Shown: positions 30,702-37,161 of the stretch, piece by piece
How the letters are laid out: each line of letters opens with the position of its first letter
Numbering within the stretch: the first letter of the stretch is position 1
Source: Thermoplasmata archaeon
GTDB lineage: Archaea; Thermoplasmatota; Thermoplasmata; Lutacidiplasmatales; UBA184
Assembly: GCA_021790425.1 (NCBI GenBank)
Contig: JAJYEA010000006.1
Location: forward strand, 1-64,000
Direction of reading: 5' to 3'
Length of the DNA stretch: 64,000 bases
Made by a program: the position numbers and the translations under genes
The notes under the pieces: generated by a model
What the model saw: the letters and a program-made list of their open reading frames with translations, nothing else
Told to the model about the DNA's origin: nothing
Databases searched by the model: none

Positions 30702-31103
30702 TCAGGTAAAATGCCGGTGGACCGCGAGCAGGTAGACGAACAGCGCGGCGGCGATGACGAGTCCGAGCGTGATCTTGCCGGCGAGCACGTCGACCAGGAG
30801 GAAGAACCCGACGACGAGCAGGCTGAGCGCGAGGGCCCACATCTCGAGGTGCCAGAGGCCCGTCGCCACGAGGAGGAGGATCACGCCGAGAAAGAGGATG
30901 ATGCCTCCGGCCAGTGCGCCGGTGAGGCCGAGGACCGAGGTCGGGGCCAGGTAGAGGGAGAAGCTCGACGCGATCACCACCAGGAGCCCGGCGATGAGCA
31001 GGAGGAGCCCGAAGAGCCCGATCAGGATCGCGAGGAGCGCGACTCCGAGGGGCAGGGTCGGTCGCACGTAGGGGCGGCCCGGTTGCGCATAGTTTCCGCT
31101 CAC
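30702..31103 (-). CDS. Small four-TM membrane protein, translationally coupled to the upstream STAND ATPase
   Basis: Four hydrophobic helices; GTG start overlaps STAND ATPase stop (GTGA). Confidence 0.65.
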   Translation of the reverse strand: MSGNYAQPGRPYVRPTLPLGVALLAILIGLFGLLLLIAGLLVVIASSFSLYLAPTSVLGLTGALAGGIILFLGVILLLVATGLWHLEMWALALSLLVVGFFLLVDVLAGKITLGLVIAAALFVYLLAVHRHFT

Positions 31104-34100
31104 GTCGTCTCCCGGCCCATAGGTACCGCACCGGTGGTCTTATAGAGTGCGTCCGCCGCCTCGCGATGCCGCGAAGCCTCCTCGCGCGACCCGAAGCGGA
31201 GCTCCCAGGCGGCGAGGGTGTCGAGCGAGCGCGCCTCCTCGACCTTGGCGAAGTACTTCCGGGAGGACGCGAGCGCGAGGTCGGCCTCCGTCCTCGCCTC
31301 TTCGCGCTGTCCCCGCAGCAGGGCGAGCTCCGACCGGAGGCGGTGGTAGTGGGAGACGTCCTCCGGAGGGAGGTCCTGTTCAGGCTGGGTGAGCTGTCCG
31401 AGCACGGCACCGGCCTCCGCGAGCTCCCCCCGGGCGAGGTGGATGCGGGCCAGGGTGAGCTGGGCGTAGCCGGCGGGCCCGGCGCTGGAGGTGGCGCGCA
31501 GGTCGGGCAGCGCGTGCCGGGCCTTCTCGAGCGCACGGTCGGCGTGTCCGGTCCGGAGATCGAGGCGGGCCTCCAGGAGTTCGAAGAAGGCGTCCATGAA
31601 GCGGAGGCCGAACCGCTGCGCCAGCGTCCGCCCCTCCGTGGTGGCCTTCCGGCAACGGTCATCCTCGCCCATGAGCTCGTAGACGTAGGCGATGTTCCAG
31701 AGGGAGGACGTGTAGCTCGAAACGTCGCCGATCTTGCGGAGGAGATCGGACCCCTGGCGGATGTCCTGCTCGGCGGTCTTGAGGTCCCCCCGGTGCACCG
31801 CCACCTCGGAGGAGAGGTTGCACAGGAGCGCGGTCATGCGTTCGGTCCCCTCGCCCCCGAGGAGCGCGCGGCCGGCCTCGAGCCACCGGTGGTACTCCTC
31901 CTCCAGCGCGAGCTGGCCCGCAAGCCACCCGGCGTCGTAGCAGAAGCGGAGCCGGAGCCACGTCGGGGCGGAGTCGGCGGCCAGGGCCGAGGCCTCGCGG
32001 AAGCTCACGAGGGAGCCCTGGAAGTCTCCCTTCGCGTACCGGGCGTTCCCCTCGACCCCCTTGATGAGGGACTCGGTGAGGGCGGAGAGCCTCGTGCCCC
32101 GAGCCCGCCCCTCGTCCACCGCGGTCCGCAGCGTCGCCTCGGCCTCCACCGGCGTGGAGGGCGTGGTGAGGTAACTACGATAGGCGAGCGCCAGGGTCCG
32201 GAGCTCGGGGGAGGCCGGGATCTCCTCCATCCGGTGGAACAACCCCCGCACCGACGAGGCCGGACCTCCCGTCAGATAGAGCCGGAGGGCGATGTCCATC
32301 CCCTCCTGCAGCCGGGCATCCGGCGCCACGCCGCCCAGGGCCAGGAGGTCCTGGAGCCATCCATGGTAGGTCTCGACCGCCCGGCTTGCGTGCGCCCGGA
32401 TGGCGGCATCGATGGCGCGGCGGATCCACGCCGGGCCCTCTCGAACGTCCTGGGCCAGGTGGACGAGACGGGCGATCTGGTCGACCTGGTCGCTCGCGTG
32501 GTCGATCGCCAACCGTGCGAGCGTCGCCGCATCGGCCGCGATCCGCGTCTCCGGGATCTCCGAGAGCGTACCCTCCCACACCAGGGGGTGTCCGAAGGAC
32601 CACCGTCCGGGCCGTCCGGGGACGCGGTCGAGCAGCCCGTGCTGGGTCCCGAGGCTGACGAAGACGTCCTTCAGCGTCCCGTGCCCGGGACCGAGGGCGG
32701 CAGAGACGTCGCCCTCGTCGAACTCGCTCCCGGCCACCGCGGCCATCTCGAGCGCCCGGCGCTTCTCGGGGGTGAGCATCCGGAGCCGCCGCAGGACCAG
32801 CCGCTTCAGCGTGTCGGGCAGGTCGGACTTCGCACCTGTGCCGTCGTTGCGGTGCCGGACGAAGACGAACTCGGACCCGTCGGGAGCCAGGGTCCCCTCC
32901 TCCCGCATCTGGCGTACCAGCTCGAGGAGGAAGTAGGGGTTGCCTCCCGTGCGTTCCAGGAGCGGGGAGAGGCTCCCCTCCCCCGGCCCTAGGTGCGGAG
33001 GCGCGCCGAGCACGGCGGCGCAGAGCTCGCCGAGCGCTTTCTCGTCGAGCGGCTGCACCTCGAGGCGGCGCAGGGAACCCTCGCGCTCCATCGCGTCGAG
33101 GATCTCCACCAGGGCGCCCGCGTCCGTCCCGCTGGCCGGCCGGTCGTCGTCCGGCCGCAGGGAGGCCACGAGGAGGACCGGCAGGGTGCGGATGTTGCGC
33201 GCCAGGAACTGGACGGCCCGGAGGGACTCCGGGTCGGCCCACTGGAGGTCGTCGAAGAACAGGATCTGGGGCTTCCGACGGGACCAACCGTCGAGCTGGC
33301 GGAGGAAGCGGAGCATCGACTGGGCGGGGGACTCCGTCGGGGCGGCGGTGTCGGGGGCCCGCGCCCCGTGGGGCACCAGCACCTCCCCCTCGGCCACGAG
33401 GAGGGCCACCTCCTTCTTCTCCAGGGCCTCGGGATGGAGCGAGACCAGGAGCCGTCCGCCCGAGGACTCGGCCGCGTCCCGCAGGAACTGGATGAGCCGC
33501 AGGACGGGAACGAACCCGTTCTGGCTCACGAGGTACTCGAGGCCCGCGATGGCGACCACGGATCCCGGGGAGGTGGTCAGGTGCTTCTCGAGGGTCGCCC
33601 CGAGGCTGTCGAGGGAGGTGGGGCTCAGGGCCCCCTGGCCTTCCGCGCGGGAGAGCCAGTAGACCTGCGCCTCCGGGGAGAGCGTCGGGAGGCGCTGCCG
33701 CAGGACGCCCTCCCGCTCCCGCGTCAGGAGGAGGGTCGGATGCTGCTGGGCGATCGGGAGCAGGCGTTGGAAGAACAGGGTCGGCTTCTCCTCCTGCACG
33801 AAGAGCACGGTCGGTGCGTTCCGGTCCTCGGGGCCGGGTTCCGGCGTCGGCTCCTCGGCCCCGGCCGCTTCGGCCCGGAAGAGTTGCGCGAACGGGAAGA
33901 AGGGGAGGTTCGTGTCCTTGAGGCAGTAGGCCCACCGAACCTCGCAACCCCGGGACCGTCCCGTCTCCTCGACCCAGCGAAGGAGCCGGGTCTTCCCGAT
34001 CCCGGCCGGCCCGGAGACGACGGTGAGCGACCCTTCCGAACGCCCCACCCGGTCGAGCATCGTCTCGAGGAACGCCTGTTCCCGCTGCCGGCCCACGATG

Positions 34101-34231
34101 GGGAGGGTGGTCGTGGGGATCATGGGCATCCCTCGACCCGGAGCGGCCTCGCCTCGCGGCTCCTTCGGGGAGTGACGCTCGTTCCCGGGCACCGTACCCG
34201 TATCGAGGGGCCGATCATCTCGCGTATCCAC
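31100..34231 (-). CDS. Large STAND/AAA_16-type ATPase with DUF835-like insertion and C-terminal TPR-like repeats
   Basis: Walker A 'SGPAGIGKTRLLRW'; DUF835-like 'TVLFVQEEKPTLFFQRLL...LLLTREREGVLRQRL...VYWLSRAEGQGALSPTSLDSLGATLEKHLTTSPGSVVAIAGLEYLVSQNGFVPVLRLIQFLRD'; Walker B 'PQILFFDDLQWADPESLRAVQFLA'; helical repeats to C terminus. Alternative start near 34129. Confidence 0.85.
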   Translation of the reverse strand: MDTRDDRPLDTGTVPGNERHSPKEPRGEAAPGRGMPMIPTTTLPIVGRQREQAFLETMLDRVGRSEGSLTVVSGPAGIGKTRLLRWVEETGRSRGCEVRWAYCLKDTNLPFFPFAQLFRAEAAGAEEPTPEPGPEDRNAPTVLFVQEEKPTLFFQRLLPIAQQHPTLLLTREREGVLRQRLPTLSPEAQVYWLSRAEGQGALSPTSLDSLGATLEKHLTTSPGSVVAIAGLEYLVSQNGFVPVLRLIQFLRDAAESSGGRLLVSLHPEALEKKEVALLVAEGEVLVPHGARAPDTAAPTESPAQSMLRFLRQLDGWSRRKPQILFFDDLQWADPESLRAVQFLARNIRTLPVLLVASLRPDDDRPASGTDAGALVEILDAMEREGSLRRLEVQPLDEKALGELCAAVLGAPPHLGPGEGSLSPLLERTGGNPYFLLELVRQMREEGTLAPDGSEFVFVRHRNDGTGAKSDLPDTLKRLVLRRLRMLTPEKRRALEMAAVAGSEFDEGDVSAALGPGHGTLKDVFVSLGTQHGLLDRVPGRPGRWSFGHPLVWEGTLSEIPETRIAADAATLARLAIDHASDQVDQIARLVHLAQDVREGPAWIRRAIDAAIRAHASRAVETYHGWLQDLLALGGVAPDARLQEGMDIALRLYLTGGPASSVRGLFHRMEEIPASPELRTLALAYRSYLTTPSTPVEAEATLRTAVDEGRARGTRLSALTESLIKGVEGNARYAKGDFQGSLVSFREASALAADSAPTWLRLRFCYDAGWLAGQLALEEEYHRWLEAGRALLGGEGTERMTALLCNLSSEVAVHRGDLKTAEQDIRQGSDLLRKIGDVSSYTSSLWNIAYVYELMGEDDRCRKATTEGRTLAQRFGLRFMDAFFELLEARLDLRTGHADRALEKARHALPDLRATSSAGPAGYAQLTLARIHLARGELAEAGAVLGQLTQPEQDLPPEDVSHYHRLRSELALLRGQREEARTEADLALASSRKYFAKVEEARSLDTLAAWELRFGSREEASRHREAADALYKTTGAVPMGRETT

Positions 34232-34359: not shown

Positions 34360-37161
34360 ATGTACGGACGAAGAACCTTGGTAGGTATGGCCACGATCCT
34401 GGCCGTGACCGCGCTCATGGCGATGCCGACATCGCCCCTCCCCTCGCATTCCGGCACCGCCCTCGGTCGCTCGCCGACGCAGGTCGCGGGCCCGACCACG
34501 CCGCACACCCTCGCGTCGCGGGTCGCCCCGGGACCGAACGCGCTGGCGAAGCTCTCTCCCTCGGTCGCCTCTCGGCTCGGGCTCCTCCGCTCCCCGGCCT
34601 CCGCACCCTCGGGCTCCGGAGCGCCCGTCGGGAACGGTGCGGCGGTCCCTGTGGCTCCCTCCTCTCCCCAGCTCACCGTCCCGACCCGCTGGGCCGGGCT
34701 CGACTACAACTCGAACCTCTGCACGTGCGTTCCTCCCGACGGCGGTGTCGCGGCCGGCGACGGGGACGTCGTGCAGACCGTGAACTCCGCCCTGGAGGTC
34801 TGGACCACCTCCGGCACCCTGGTCACGACGGAATCCCTCCCCCAGTTCTTCCGCATACCGGCGAGCGACTTCTTCTCCGATCCCTACATCATCTACGACA
34901 GCCAAGCCGGGCGCTGGGTCGTCTCGGGCATCGACATCAACGGAGCGACCTACCAGGGCACGATCGACGTCAACGTCTCCCAGACGAGCAGCTTCCTCGG
35001 CGGTTGGACCGAATATCAGTTCACGTCGAACGCGTCCGCCGTCACCCTCACCGACCAACCCTTCATCGCCCTCACCTCCGAGAACCTCCTGGTCTCCGCC
35101 AACATCTTCGACATGAGCACCGGGTCGTTGCTCGGCGCCGAGATCTGGATGGCGAACCTGACCGCCGTCCTGGCCGGTGCCCCCTCCCCCTCCGAGTACT
35201 CGTGGGGGCCGAATGCCTCGTTCGGTTCCCTCCACCCCGCCAGCCCGATCGGGCCGTCCCCCAACGCCTACTTCGTCAGCGACAACTTCGGGGCCGCCTA
35301 CGGGGTCACCTCCCAGACTTTCCTCAACGTGATGGAGTTCCGGGGTTCCCCGCCGGCGGCGGTGACGATGACGGACACCAACCTCTCGATCACTCCCGAG
35401 GCGTCCGCCCCTCTCGTCAATGGGGCGTGGTGCGCCTGGGATGCGACGGGGGCCTGCCTGTCGCTCGATGACGGCCGCGTGCTGTCCGCCGTGTGGGCGA
35501 ACGGGTACCTCTGGGGGACGGCGAACGAGGGTTGCCTGCAGGGCGGTGTCAACGACGCCTGCATTCGCGTCTTCGAGGTGAACACCTCGGCCGCCACCCC
35601 CACGCTCCTCCAGCAGATCGATTTCAGCCAGGGCGGGAGTTCCATGGACTCCTACGGGGCCGTGGCGCTCGACTACGTCGGTGACCTCGGCATGGTCTTC
35701 AGCGGGGCGGGCAACGCCACGTTCCCGAGCCTCTACGTGACCGGCGCCACGGCCGCGCAGATCGCGGCGGCCACGAAGGCCGGCACTCCCCTCACCCTTT
35801 CGACCCCCGTGACCGTGGCGGCCGGGGTCGGCCTCCTCGATCCGACCGTCTTCGCGAACCGCTGGGGCGACTACTTCGAGATCTCCCCGGATGCCAACGT
35901 GTGGAACTCCCTGTGGCTCGAAGGGGAGTACATCGGGCCGAACAACGCGACCGACTACTACTCGACCGAGGTCGCGCAGACCTCCTTCCCGACGGCGCTC
36001 TACACGGTCAACGTGACCGCGAGCGGTCTCGCCCCCGGGACCAACTGGACGGCCTCGCTCAACGGGATCTCCGCCGCGTCGGGCACCTCCTGGCTCCGGT
36101 TCGAGGTGCCGAACGGCACCTACACCTTCGCCCCCGGGGCCATCCCCTCGGCCCCGGGCGTGCGCTACGGGGCGAACATCACGTCAAAGCCGATCACGGT
36201 CGCCGGGAATACCGTCTCCCTCCAAGTACACTACCAGAAGGAGGACCTCGTGACCACATCCGTGTGGCCTTCCCCCACCGCAGGTAGCGTGGTCCCCGGC
36301 TCGGGCTGGATCTACGATGGCAATGCGACGACCTTCACGGCCACTCCCTCCCCCGGGGGCGACTTCCTGCTCTGGATGGGCACGGGCACCGGCAACTACA
36401 CCGGGACCTCGCCGTCCTTCCATGTCACGCTGAGCGCCCCGATCACGGAGGTGGCGTACTTCGGGGTCCGGCCCTCGTACGCGGTGACCGTGACCCAGGG
36501 CGGCCTCCCCACCGGGACGTCGTGGAGCATCTCCGTGAACGGCGTGACGAAGACCACCACGAACGCGAGCGTGACCTTCCAGGAGCCGAACGGCACCTAC
36601 GGGTATTCCGCCCCGAGCCCCATCGCGGGCAAGGGCTACGGCACGGAGTTCGTGAGCACGGACGCCGTGGGGACGGTGAACGTGAGCGGGTCGGCGAAGG
36701 CCGTCACCCTCTCGTACTCGGCCCAGTACGAGGTGAAGTTGACCGTCTCCCCTTCGAACGCCGGGGGCGTGACCCCCGCGTCGGGATGGTATCCTGCCGG
36801 GTCGCTGACGGTCAATGCCTACGGCGCCGCGGGCTATCAGTTCGTGAAGTGGAACGCCACGGGCATCCCGGGCGGACTCGGGAACTCCTCCAGCGCGACC
36901 TTCTCCCTCTCGGGCCCCGTGAACCTCACCGCGGTCTTCGTGGCCGCGAGCCCGCACGGATCGACCTCGGGGTCGAACTCCTCGGGCGGGCTGAGCCTCC
37001 CGCTTGCCATCGGGCTGATCGCGGTCGCTGCGGTCGTCGCGCTCGTCCTCGGTCTTCTGGTCGGGCGGCGGATGGGCCGGAAGGGCACTTCCTCCGCGCC
37101 CGCGGGCCCCTACCCTTCGGCACCGGCCAGCTACCCGGGGTACCCTCCTCCCCCGCCGTAG
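34360..37161 (+). CDS. Large secreted surface protein with InlB_B-like repeats, C-terminal TM and Pro-rich tail
   Basis: Signal peptide; many N-glycosylation-type sequons; repeated 'YTVNVTASGLAPGTNWTASLNG'/'YAVTVTQGGLPTGTSWSISVNG' and 'FLLWMGTGTGNYTGTS'/'FVKWNATGIPGGLGNSS'; C-terminal TM then 'YPSAPASYPGYPPPPP'. Confidence 0.75.
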   Translation: MYGRRTLVGMATILAVTALMAMPTSPLPSHSGTALGRSPTQVAGPTTPHTLASRVAPGPNALAKLSPSVASRLGLLRSPASAPSGSGAPVGNGAAVPVAPSSPQLTVPTRWAGLDYNSNLCTCVPPDGGVAAGDGDVVQTVNSALEVWTTSGTLVTTESLPQFFRIPASDFFSDPYIIYDSQAGRWVVSGIDINGATYQGTIDVNVSQTSSFLGGWTEYQFTSNASAVTLTDQPFIALTSENLLVSANIFDMSTGSLLGAEIWMANLTAVLAGAPSPSEYSWGPNASFGSLHPASPIGPSPNAYFVSDNFGAAYGVTSQTFLNVMEFRGSPPAAVTMTDTNLSITPEASAPLVNGAWCAWDATGACLSLDDGRVLSAVWANGYLWGTANEGCLQGGVNDACIRVFEVNTSAATPTLLQQIDFSQGGSSMDSYGAVALDYVGDLGMVFSGAGNATFPSLYVTGATAAQIAAATKAGTPLTLSTPVTVAAGVGLLDPTVFANRWGDYFEISPDANVWNSLWLEGEYIGPNNATDYYSTEVAQTSFPTALYTVNVTASGLAPGTNWTASLNGISAASGTSWLRFEVPNGTYTFAPGAIPSAPGVRYGANITSKPITVAGNTVSLQVHYQKEDLVTTSVWPSPTAGSVVPGSGWIYDGNATTFTATPSPGGDFLLWMGTGTGNYTGTSPSFHVTLSAPITEVAYFGVRPSYAVTVTQGGLPTGTSWSISVNGVTKTTTNASVTFQEPNGTYGYSAPSPIAGKGYGTEFVSTDAVGTVNVSGSAKAVTLSYSAQYEVKLTVSPSNAGGVTPASGWYPAGSLTVNAYGAAGYQFVKWNATGIPGGLGNSSSATFSLSGPVNLTAVFVAASPHGSTSGSNSSGGLSLPLAIGLIAVAAVVALVLGLLVGRRMGRKGTSSAPAGPYPSAPASYPGYPPPPP

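Follow-up and report, generated by a model that had tools for sequence, protein, structure and literature searches.

An open reading frame on the minus strand of a Thermoplasmata archaeon contig had been predicted to encode a STAND/AAA_16 ATPase with a DUF835-like domain placed between its Walker A and Walker B motifs. Does a separate domain really interrupt the NTPase core of this protein, how widespread is such an arrangement, and what could a domain do in this position? We followed up these questions starting from the stretch of DNA that carries the gene (hereafter the window; 64,000 nucleotides).

Position of DUF835 in the STAND ATPase

Pfam analysis of the window protein returned AAA_16 (PF13191) at residues 45-355 (E=1.2e-18, 68.6 bits with a cut-off of 32.6) and DUF835 (PF05763) at residues 161-279 (E=7.1e-24, 84.6 bits with a cut-off of 33.1); the latter match covers model positions 17-133 of 136 and is above the gathering threshold. 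Since the second range lies inside the first, DUF835 is wholly contained in AAA_16. The start codon is GTG as listed, but translation may also begin at M35/M37, which leaves the first ~35 residues uncertain. The gene has the following features:

31100..34231, minus strand: whole ORF of 1043 aa, AAA_16(STAND)-DUF835(nested)-winged helix-TPR (ORF, Pfam, homologues)
33167..34099, minus strand: AAA_16 NTPase, residues 45-355, split by DUF835 (PF13191; AlphaFold2 (AF2) core pLDDT >90)
33989..34012, minus strand: Walker A GPAGIGKT, residues 74-81 (sequence; G74, G77, G79 and K80 invariant in alignment A1)
33860..33898, minus strand: helix alpha2, residues 112-124, last element before the insert (AF2 secondary structure)
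33815..33871, minus strand: variable linker, residues 121-139, mean identity 14% (homologue identity)
33374..33814, minus strand: DUF835 / inactivated KaiC-like domain, residues about 140-286 (PF05763)
33395-33751, minus strand: Pfam DUF835 match, residues 161-279 (PF05763)
33275..33328, minus strand: helix alpha3, residues 302-319, first element of the resumed NTPase fold (AF2 secondary structure)
33248..33268, minus strand: Walker B strand QILFFDD, residues 322-328, with LQWAD-type STAND motif (D327, W331 and D333 invariant in A1; AF2 strand 322-327)
32552..33043, minus strand: helical/winged-helix part of the STAND NTPase with GGNPYFL (GxP), residues about 397-560 (G430, P432; AF2)
31133..32524, minus strand: TPR superhelix, residues about 570-1033, presumably a variable sensor/assembly arm (TPR_19; TPR_12 in homologues; AF2; Foldseek)

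The coordinates, the motifs and the Pfam matches all agree with DUF835 lying between Walker A and Walker B, and the nested architecture and its insertion site are solid. Walker B (ILFFDD, residues 323-328) is followed by LQWAD, the two together spanning residues 323-333. A GRxxE-type motif, VGRQREQ, precedes Walker A, with R48 invariant and E51 at least 90% conserved in A1; in the GxP motif of the winged-helix part, G430 is invariant and P432 at least 90% conserved. Walker A and Walker B patterns were found in 49 and 48 of the 50 nested homologues, respectively. The TPR-like C terminus of the original prediction was confirmed with the help of homologues: the TPR_19 match is weak in the window protein by itself, but TPR_12 matches 22 of the 24 aligned homologues, and the region forms helical hairpins in the AF2 model, with Foldseek matches to 6mfv, LGN and Rap TPRs. 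The protein thus has the hallmarks of a STAND ATPase, namely Walker A and B, GRxxE and GxP motifs and a TPR arm.

To locate the insertion site in the fold, AF2 was run with the window protein aligned with AAA_16-TPR relatives that have no insert, so the insert itself had no alignment support. The NTPase core was predicted confidently without it (pLDDT exceeds 90 in large parts of residues 45-110 and 321-360) in the order beta1 (68-73), helix (80-93), beta2 (97-102), helix (112-124), insert, helix (302-319) and beta3/Walker B (322-327); residues 123-298 were left without a defined fold. The flanking helices place the insert in the alpha2-alpha3 crossover, and modelling of the core does not depend on it. 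Among solved structures, PH0952 (6mfv), a STAND protein with TPRs as its sensor, was the top fold match of the model. The structure prediction proposed earlier as a check was informative for the core; for the insert it yielded a low-confidence fold, a single-sequence model (pLDDT 55) with weak resemblance to ClpA, KaiC, FlaH, RAD51 and other P-loop/AAA folds.

The original prediction had named in advance the finding that would count against it, namely that the segment simply belongs to the normal AAA_16 fold. AAA_16 members do have a linker of variable length at this point. However, the segment has its own Pfam match (E=7e-24), homologues in the same family do without it, DUF835 occurs elsewhere outside AAA_16 proteins, and the AF2 core folds with the insert undefined; we rejected this explanation as extremely improbable. 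A chimeric assembly or a gene-fusion artefact is just as improbable: the genomes are fragmented (the window genome consists of 153 contigs), but the identical architecture was found in uninterrupted frames of 50 genes from ten separate genomes.

Distribution and origin of the nested architecture

The window genome encodes ten DUF835 domains, seven of them nested in this manner and three C-terminal. Searching for the same insertion elsewhere, as had been proposed, was productive: ten genomes of a single family of the class Thermoplasmata yielded 50 homologues in which DUF835 stands between the Walker A and Walker B segments (the window's genus contributing five of these genomes, genus g3 four and genus g5 one), and two further nested proteins are encoded in a distant genome, G472, with a listed contamination of 7%. 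AAA_16 and DUF835 were both present in 24/24 aligned homologues, so the arrangement goes far beyond what chance would give. The distance between Walker A and Walker B was 241-277 aa in most nested homologues compared with 86-167 aa in proteins without the domain; such insert-free AAA_16 relatives occur in the window protein's own family. Among 400 class and 390 phylum genomes (many of them incomplete, with the two top candidates of each being scored), matches that extend across the insert were confined to these genera, except for G472. A scan of genome contigs returned named records, none with a nested DUF835, and a scan of viral contigs with the full alignment gave four ATPase relatives that matched only from about residue 293 onward. 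Nested DUF835 is therefore a multigene family of about 50 collected genes rather than a single oddity.

DUF835 was C-terminal in 42 of the 43 other copies in the lineage, which had been fetched without regard to their position, in line with the expected usual location of the domain. Measured against this, the architecture is indeed unusual, but the claim needs qualification, as the arrangement recurs in about 50 genes and its slot is common to another domain (see below). Our literature search, in which coverage of subscription papers was incomplete, found no account of DUF835 nesting, and an earlier description is possible.

In the domain tree, the nested DUF835 domains of the window family were monophyletic (support 98/82, present in 98% of bootstrap trees; 67/68 in an earlier, larger tree), and lay beside C-terminal copies from the same lineage. 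This tree gives good support to a single origin, and DUF835 was therefore likely inserted once in the window family, followed by gene multiplication. The DUF835 domain of the G472 protein L306 clustered with non-nested DUF835 of other families, across branches supported at 100/99. This position favours a second insertion at the same slot, and the G472 insertion is probably independent of that in the window family; a common origin of the two was not rejected (AU p=0.19). The ATPase segments gave a tree in which one clade (98/90) held 68 of the 70 nested and insert-free family proteins, with both types intermixed, and a single nested clade was not rejected (AU p=0.07). With this mixed tree and p value, the order of DUF835 gain and later loss cannot be fixed.

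A different domain at the same position

In other families of the class, the corresponding place in AAA_16-TPR proteins is taken by a different domain, about 120-150 residues long. Its profile had matches in 80 of 120 class genomes and in 0 of the 13 listed genomes of the window's family, the window genome included; there are more examples elsewhere in the phylum. The order Walker A, alternative domain, Walker B was seen in all 47 ORFs fetched, a few of whose loci overlap, and the host ATPases formed a separate clade in the ATPase tree (99/92). The hosts are thus of the same type and use the same slot as the window protein, but the inserted domains are unrelated in sequence: homology of the alternative insert to DUF835 was not supported (hhalign probability 0.7%). 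Pfam and NCBIfam gave no convincing match to it. The search of its profile against the PDB was not significant, with AP-sigma (longin fold) at E=0.055, ranking below designed proteins (0.009-0.04); from the sequence pattern, our guess would be a longin/roadblock-like fold.

As two unrelated domains occupy one place, the crossover is a repeated insertion site. It appears that the Walker A-Walker B crossover serves STAND ATPases as a general port of entry for regulatory modules, and the filling of a shared slot by different domains suggests a modular wiring of signalling switches. The STAND-TPR protein PH0952 (PDB 6mfv) and the MalT/AfsR-type regulators likewise consist of an AAA_16/STAND core, a winged helix and a TPR arm, and the TPR profile matches MalT, AfsR and PH0952. 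To our knowledge, none of these has a domain in the Walker A-Walker B interval. AAA+ ATPases of the helix-2-insert clade also have an insertion between the two motifs, in the helix-2 region, but there it is a small hairpin/helix, whereas the insert of the window protein, a STAND ATPase, is a domain about 145 aa long.

Possible roles of the nested domain

DUF835 has been classed as an inactivated KaiC-like (iKaiC) domain and occurs in archaeal signalling proteins such as the REC-DUF835 response regulators, in which it is one of the domains located after REC, on the output side (PMC5847659). As in those iKaiC/REC-DUF835 proteins, the insert of the window protein is a nearly full-length DUF835 match well over the Pfam cut-off, but here it is nested in another NTPase fold. 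The P-loop GxxxxGK[ST] was found in none of 94 DUF835 domains. With our own profiles, homology of DUF835 to KaiC/RecA ATPases was recovered weakly, with hhalign probabilities of 2-33% and a weak match to FlaH (E=0.04). The nested DUF835 is a second, probably inactive ATPase-like domain.

The segments of the protein differ in conservation. In mean identity of homologues to the window protein, DUF835 (48%) is on a par with the Walker A (46%) and Walker B (49%) segments; the remaining NTPase reaches 35%, the TPR arm 24% and the linker preceding DUF835 14%. Since DUF835 is as constrained as the catalytic segments and the TPR arm far more variable, DUF835 looks like an essential coupling module and the TPR arm like a variable sensor. 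The original prediction had suggested a part in sensing for DUF835, which is not supported as stated: the contrast in conservation is easier to reconcile with a constant module for coupling or docking than with a ligand sensor.

A second difference concerns the output. Of 21 insert-free proteins, 15 have a winged helix-turn-helix (HTH), located at the C terminus in 11 and at the N terminus in 4, whereas none of 50 nested proteins of the same family has one (Fisher p=6e-11, a value that ignores relatedness and is confounded with phylogeny). The insert-free relatives are thus likely MalT-type transcription regulators, and the nested proteins lost, or never had, this output. In L052/L084, a short partial HTH profile match was seen in the middle of the protein, inside the NTPase part. 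Domain profiles recognised no effector (e.g. HTH, cyclase or protease) in the window protein or in the nested homologues, which could still carry outputs of another kind that escape the profiles. Some STAND proteins are known in which no effector is recognised, and DUF835 itself might be the effector of the window-type protein. We also considered an antiviral STAND or BREX-type defence ATPase and rejected it, as the PADLOC matches were only short and partial, to P-loop/TPR regions (BrxD P-loop region, 3e-6).

The reading that we favour, to which we give slightly less than an even chance, is a STAND switch into which an inactivated KaiC-like domain was inserted once, with the TPR arm sensing, the NTPase switching and the insert docking or giving the output. 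The fast-evolving TPR arm would take in the signal, and the NTPase would alternate between an ADP and an ATP state; the crossover helices, by moving, would shift the nested domain with the nucleotide state. The nested domain, having no P-loop of its own for ATP, would act as a conserved docking or output surface and substitute for the DNA-binding winged HTH of the insert-free relatives. Its likely partner would be a KaiC-family protein or another DUF835 protein. The architecture, the insertion site, the conservation pattern, the missing winged HTH and the KaiC gene neighbours are observations; we infer in this scheme the ATP switching, the direction of signalling, which domain senses, the partner and the motion of the insert.

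Two other roles have to be weighed against this one. The nested DUF835 could be the sensor, with a ligand or signal setting ATP binding or hydrolysis through the alpha2-alpha3 crossover. Its position between the two nucleotide-binding motifs and the presence of DUF835 in archaeal signalling proteins such as REC-DUF835 (PMC5847659) are in keeping with this, but among paralogues the insert is conserved like the catalytic segments, the most variable part is the TPR arm, and response regulators place DUF835 after REC, on the output side (PMC5847659); we regard a sensor as rather unlikely. Slightly less likely still is an assembly module, in which a RecA/KaiC-like fold adds a ring or interface to an oligomer and no separate partner is needed. 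KaiC and RecA folds build rings and STAND proteins oligomerise upon activation, which, together with the strong conservation of the insert, would suit this role; however, sister lineages have an unrelated domain in the same slot, and many relatives have no insert at all.

A probably dead P-loop-like domain between the catalytic motifs of a live STAND NTPase is an unexpected wiring of a switch, because whatever moves the insert could have a direct effect on the nucleotide site, and conversely. The large family, with its insert-free relatives as natural controls, opens the read-out of STAND switching to domain deletion and swapping, and the nested context makes the role of DUF835, a domain of unknown function, measurable.

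The gene neighbourhoods bear on the partner. In four congeneric species, a gene for a KaiC-like ATPase with intact-looking Walker motifs lies directly downstream of a nested gene of one subfamily, on the same strand, and in a second genus an orthologue of that gene is convergent with a nested gene; in total, 5 of about 50 nested genes, from two genera, have this neighbour. The contig of the window gene had no KaiC-family match. As a speculative extension, which we consider doubtful, the crossover would be a recurrent docking slot for at least two unrelated domains (the inactivated KaiC, probably inserted twice, and the unnamed, possibly longin-like domain), and the nested dead KaiC would join or control a live KaiC-family ATPase in a two-ATPase relay, the core of one switch carrying a pseudo-subunit of the other. 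For a small membrane ORF that overlaps the 3' end of the window gene, no relative was found next to the paralogues. The other recurrent flanking ORFs of nested genes mostly represent local gene order common to close paralogues.

Unnamed domain and winged helix-turn-helix in AAA_16-TPR relatives

The slot between Walker A and Walker B held an unnamed domain of about 120-150 aa in 47 of 47 ORFs (fetched loci, a few of which overlap one another). Its pattern is YLVNxxGxLVxK..SMLxAVxDFVKDS..LxYGxxxILIE..DMRxxL..WDGD, it had no convincing match in Pfam or NCBIfam, and 80 of the 120 searched genomes of the class Thermoplasmata possess it.

L236, L237, L240-L244, L266-L295: unnamed nested domain, loci from the class but outside the window's family (alignments A3 and A6)

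A number of insert-free AAA_16-TPR proteins carried a winged helix-turn-helix of one family at the N or C terminus. Since the same family occurs at either end, the DNA-binding domain appears to have changed terminus in these proteins.

L058, L059, L060, L079, L093, L099, L235, L238, L239, L248, L250: C-terminal
L050, L232, L233, L249: N-terminal

Gene neighbours

The window ATPase gene is flanked by two ORFs:

30702-31103 (-): small hydrophobic ORF, about four TM segments
34360-37161 (+): surface-protein-like ORF, 933 aa, InlB-type B-repeats

The GTG start of the former shares 4 bases with the ATPase gene stop; nothing in Pfam matched it, and the ATPase paralogues had no homologue of it alongside. 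The latter is divergent from the ATPase gene. In two genera, nested-DUF835 ATPase genes were adjoined by a KaiC-like ATPase gene (L046:643-1404 (-), L057, L077, L082, L100), on the same strand in one genus and convergent in the other.

DUF835 in other proteins

In Thermoplasmata-class genomes, DUF835 also formed a C-terminal fusion with isoleucyl-tRNA synthetase (L222:768-5303, L195:4494-8618, L206, L203). The L222 protein comprises a full IleRS (TIGR00392, 954 bits), zinc ribbons and DUF835. In the window's family, DUF835 sits on a diverged IleRS-like protein (score at most 131 bits; no tRNA-synt_1 Pfam match in L195), apparently a degenerate synthetase paralogue. A 982-aa protein of genome G016 (L200:3300-6245) combines an N-terminal class III nucleotide cyclase domain with DUF835 at its end.
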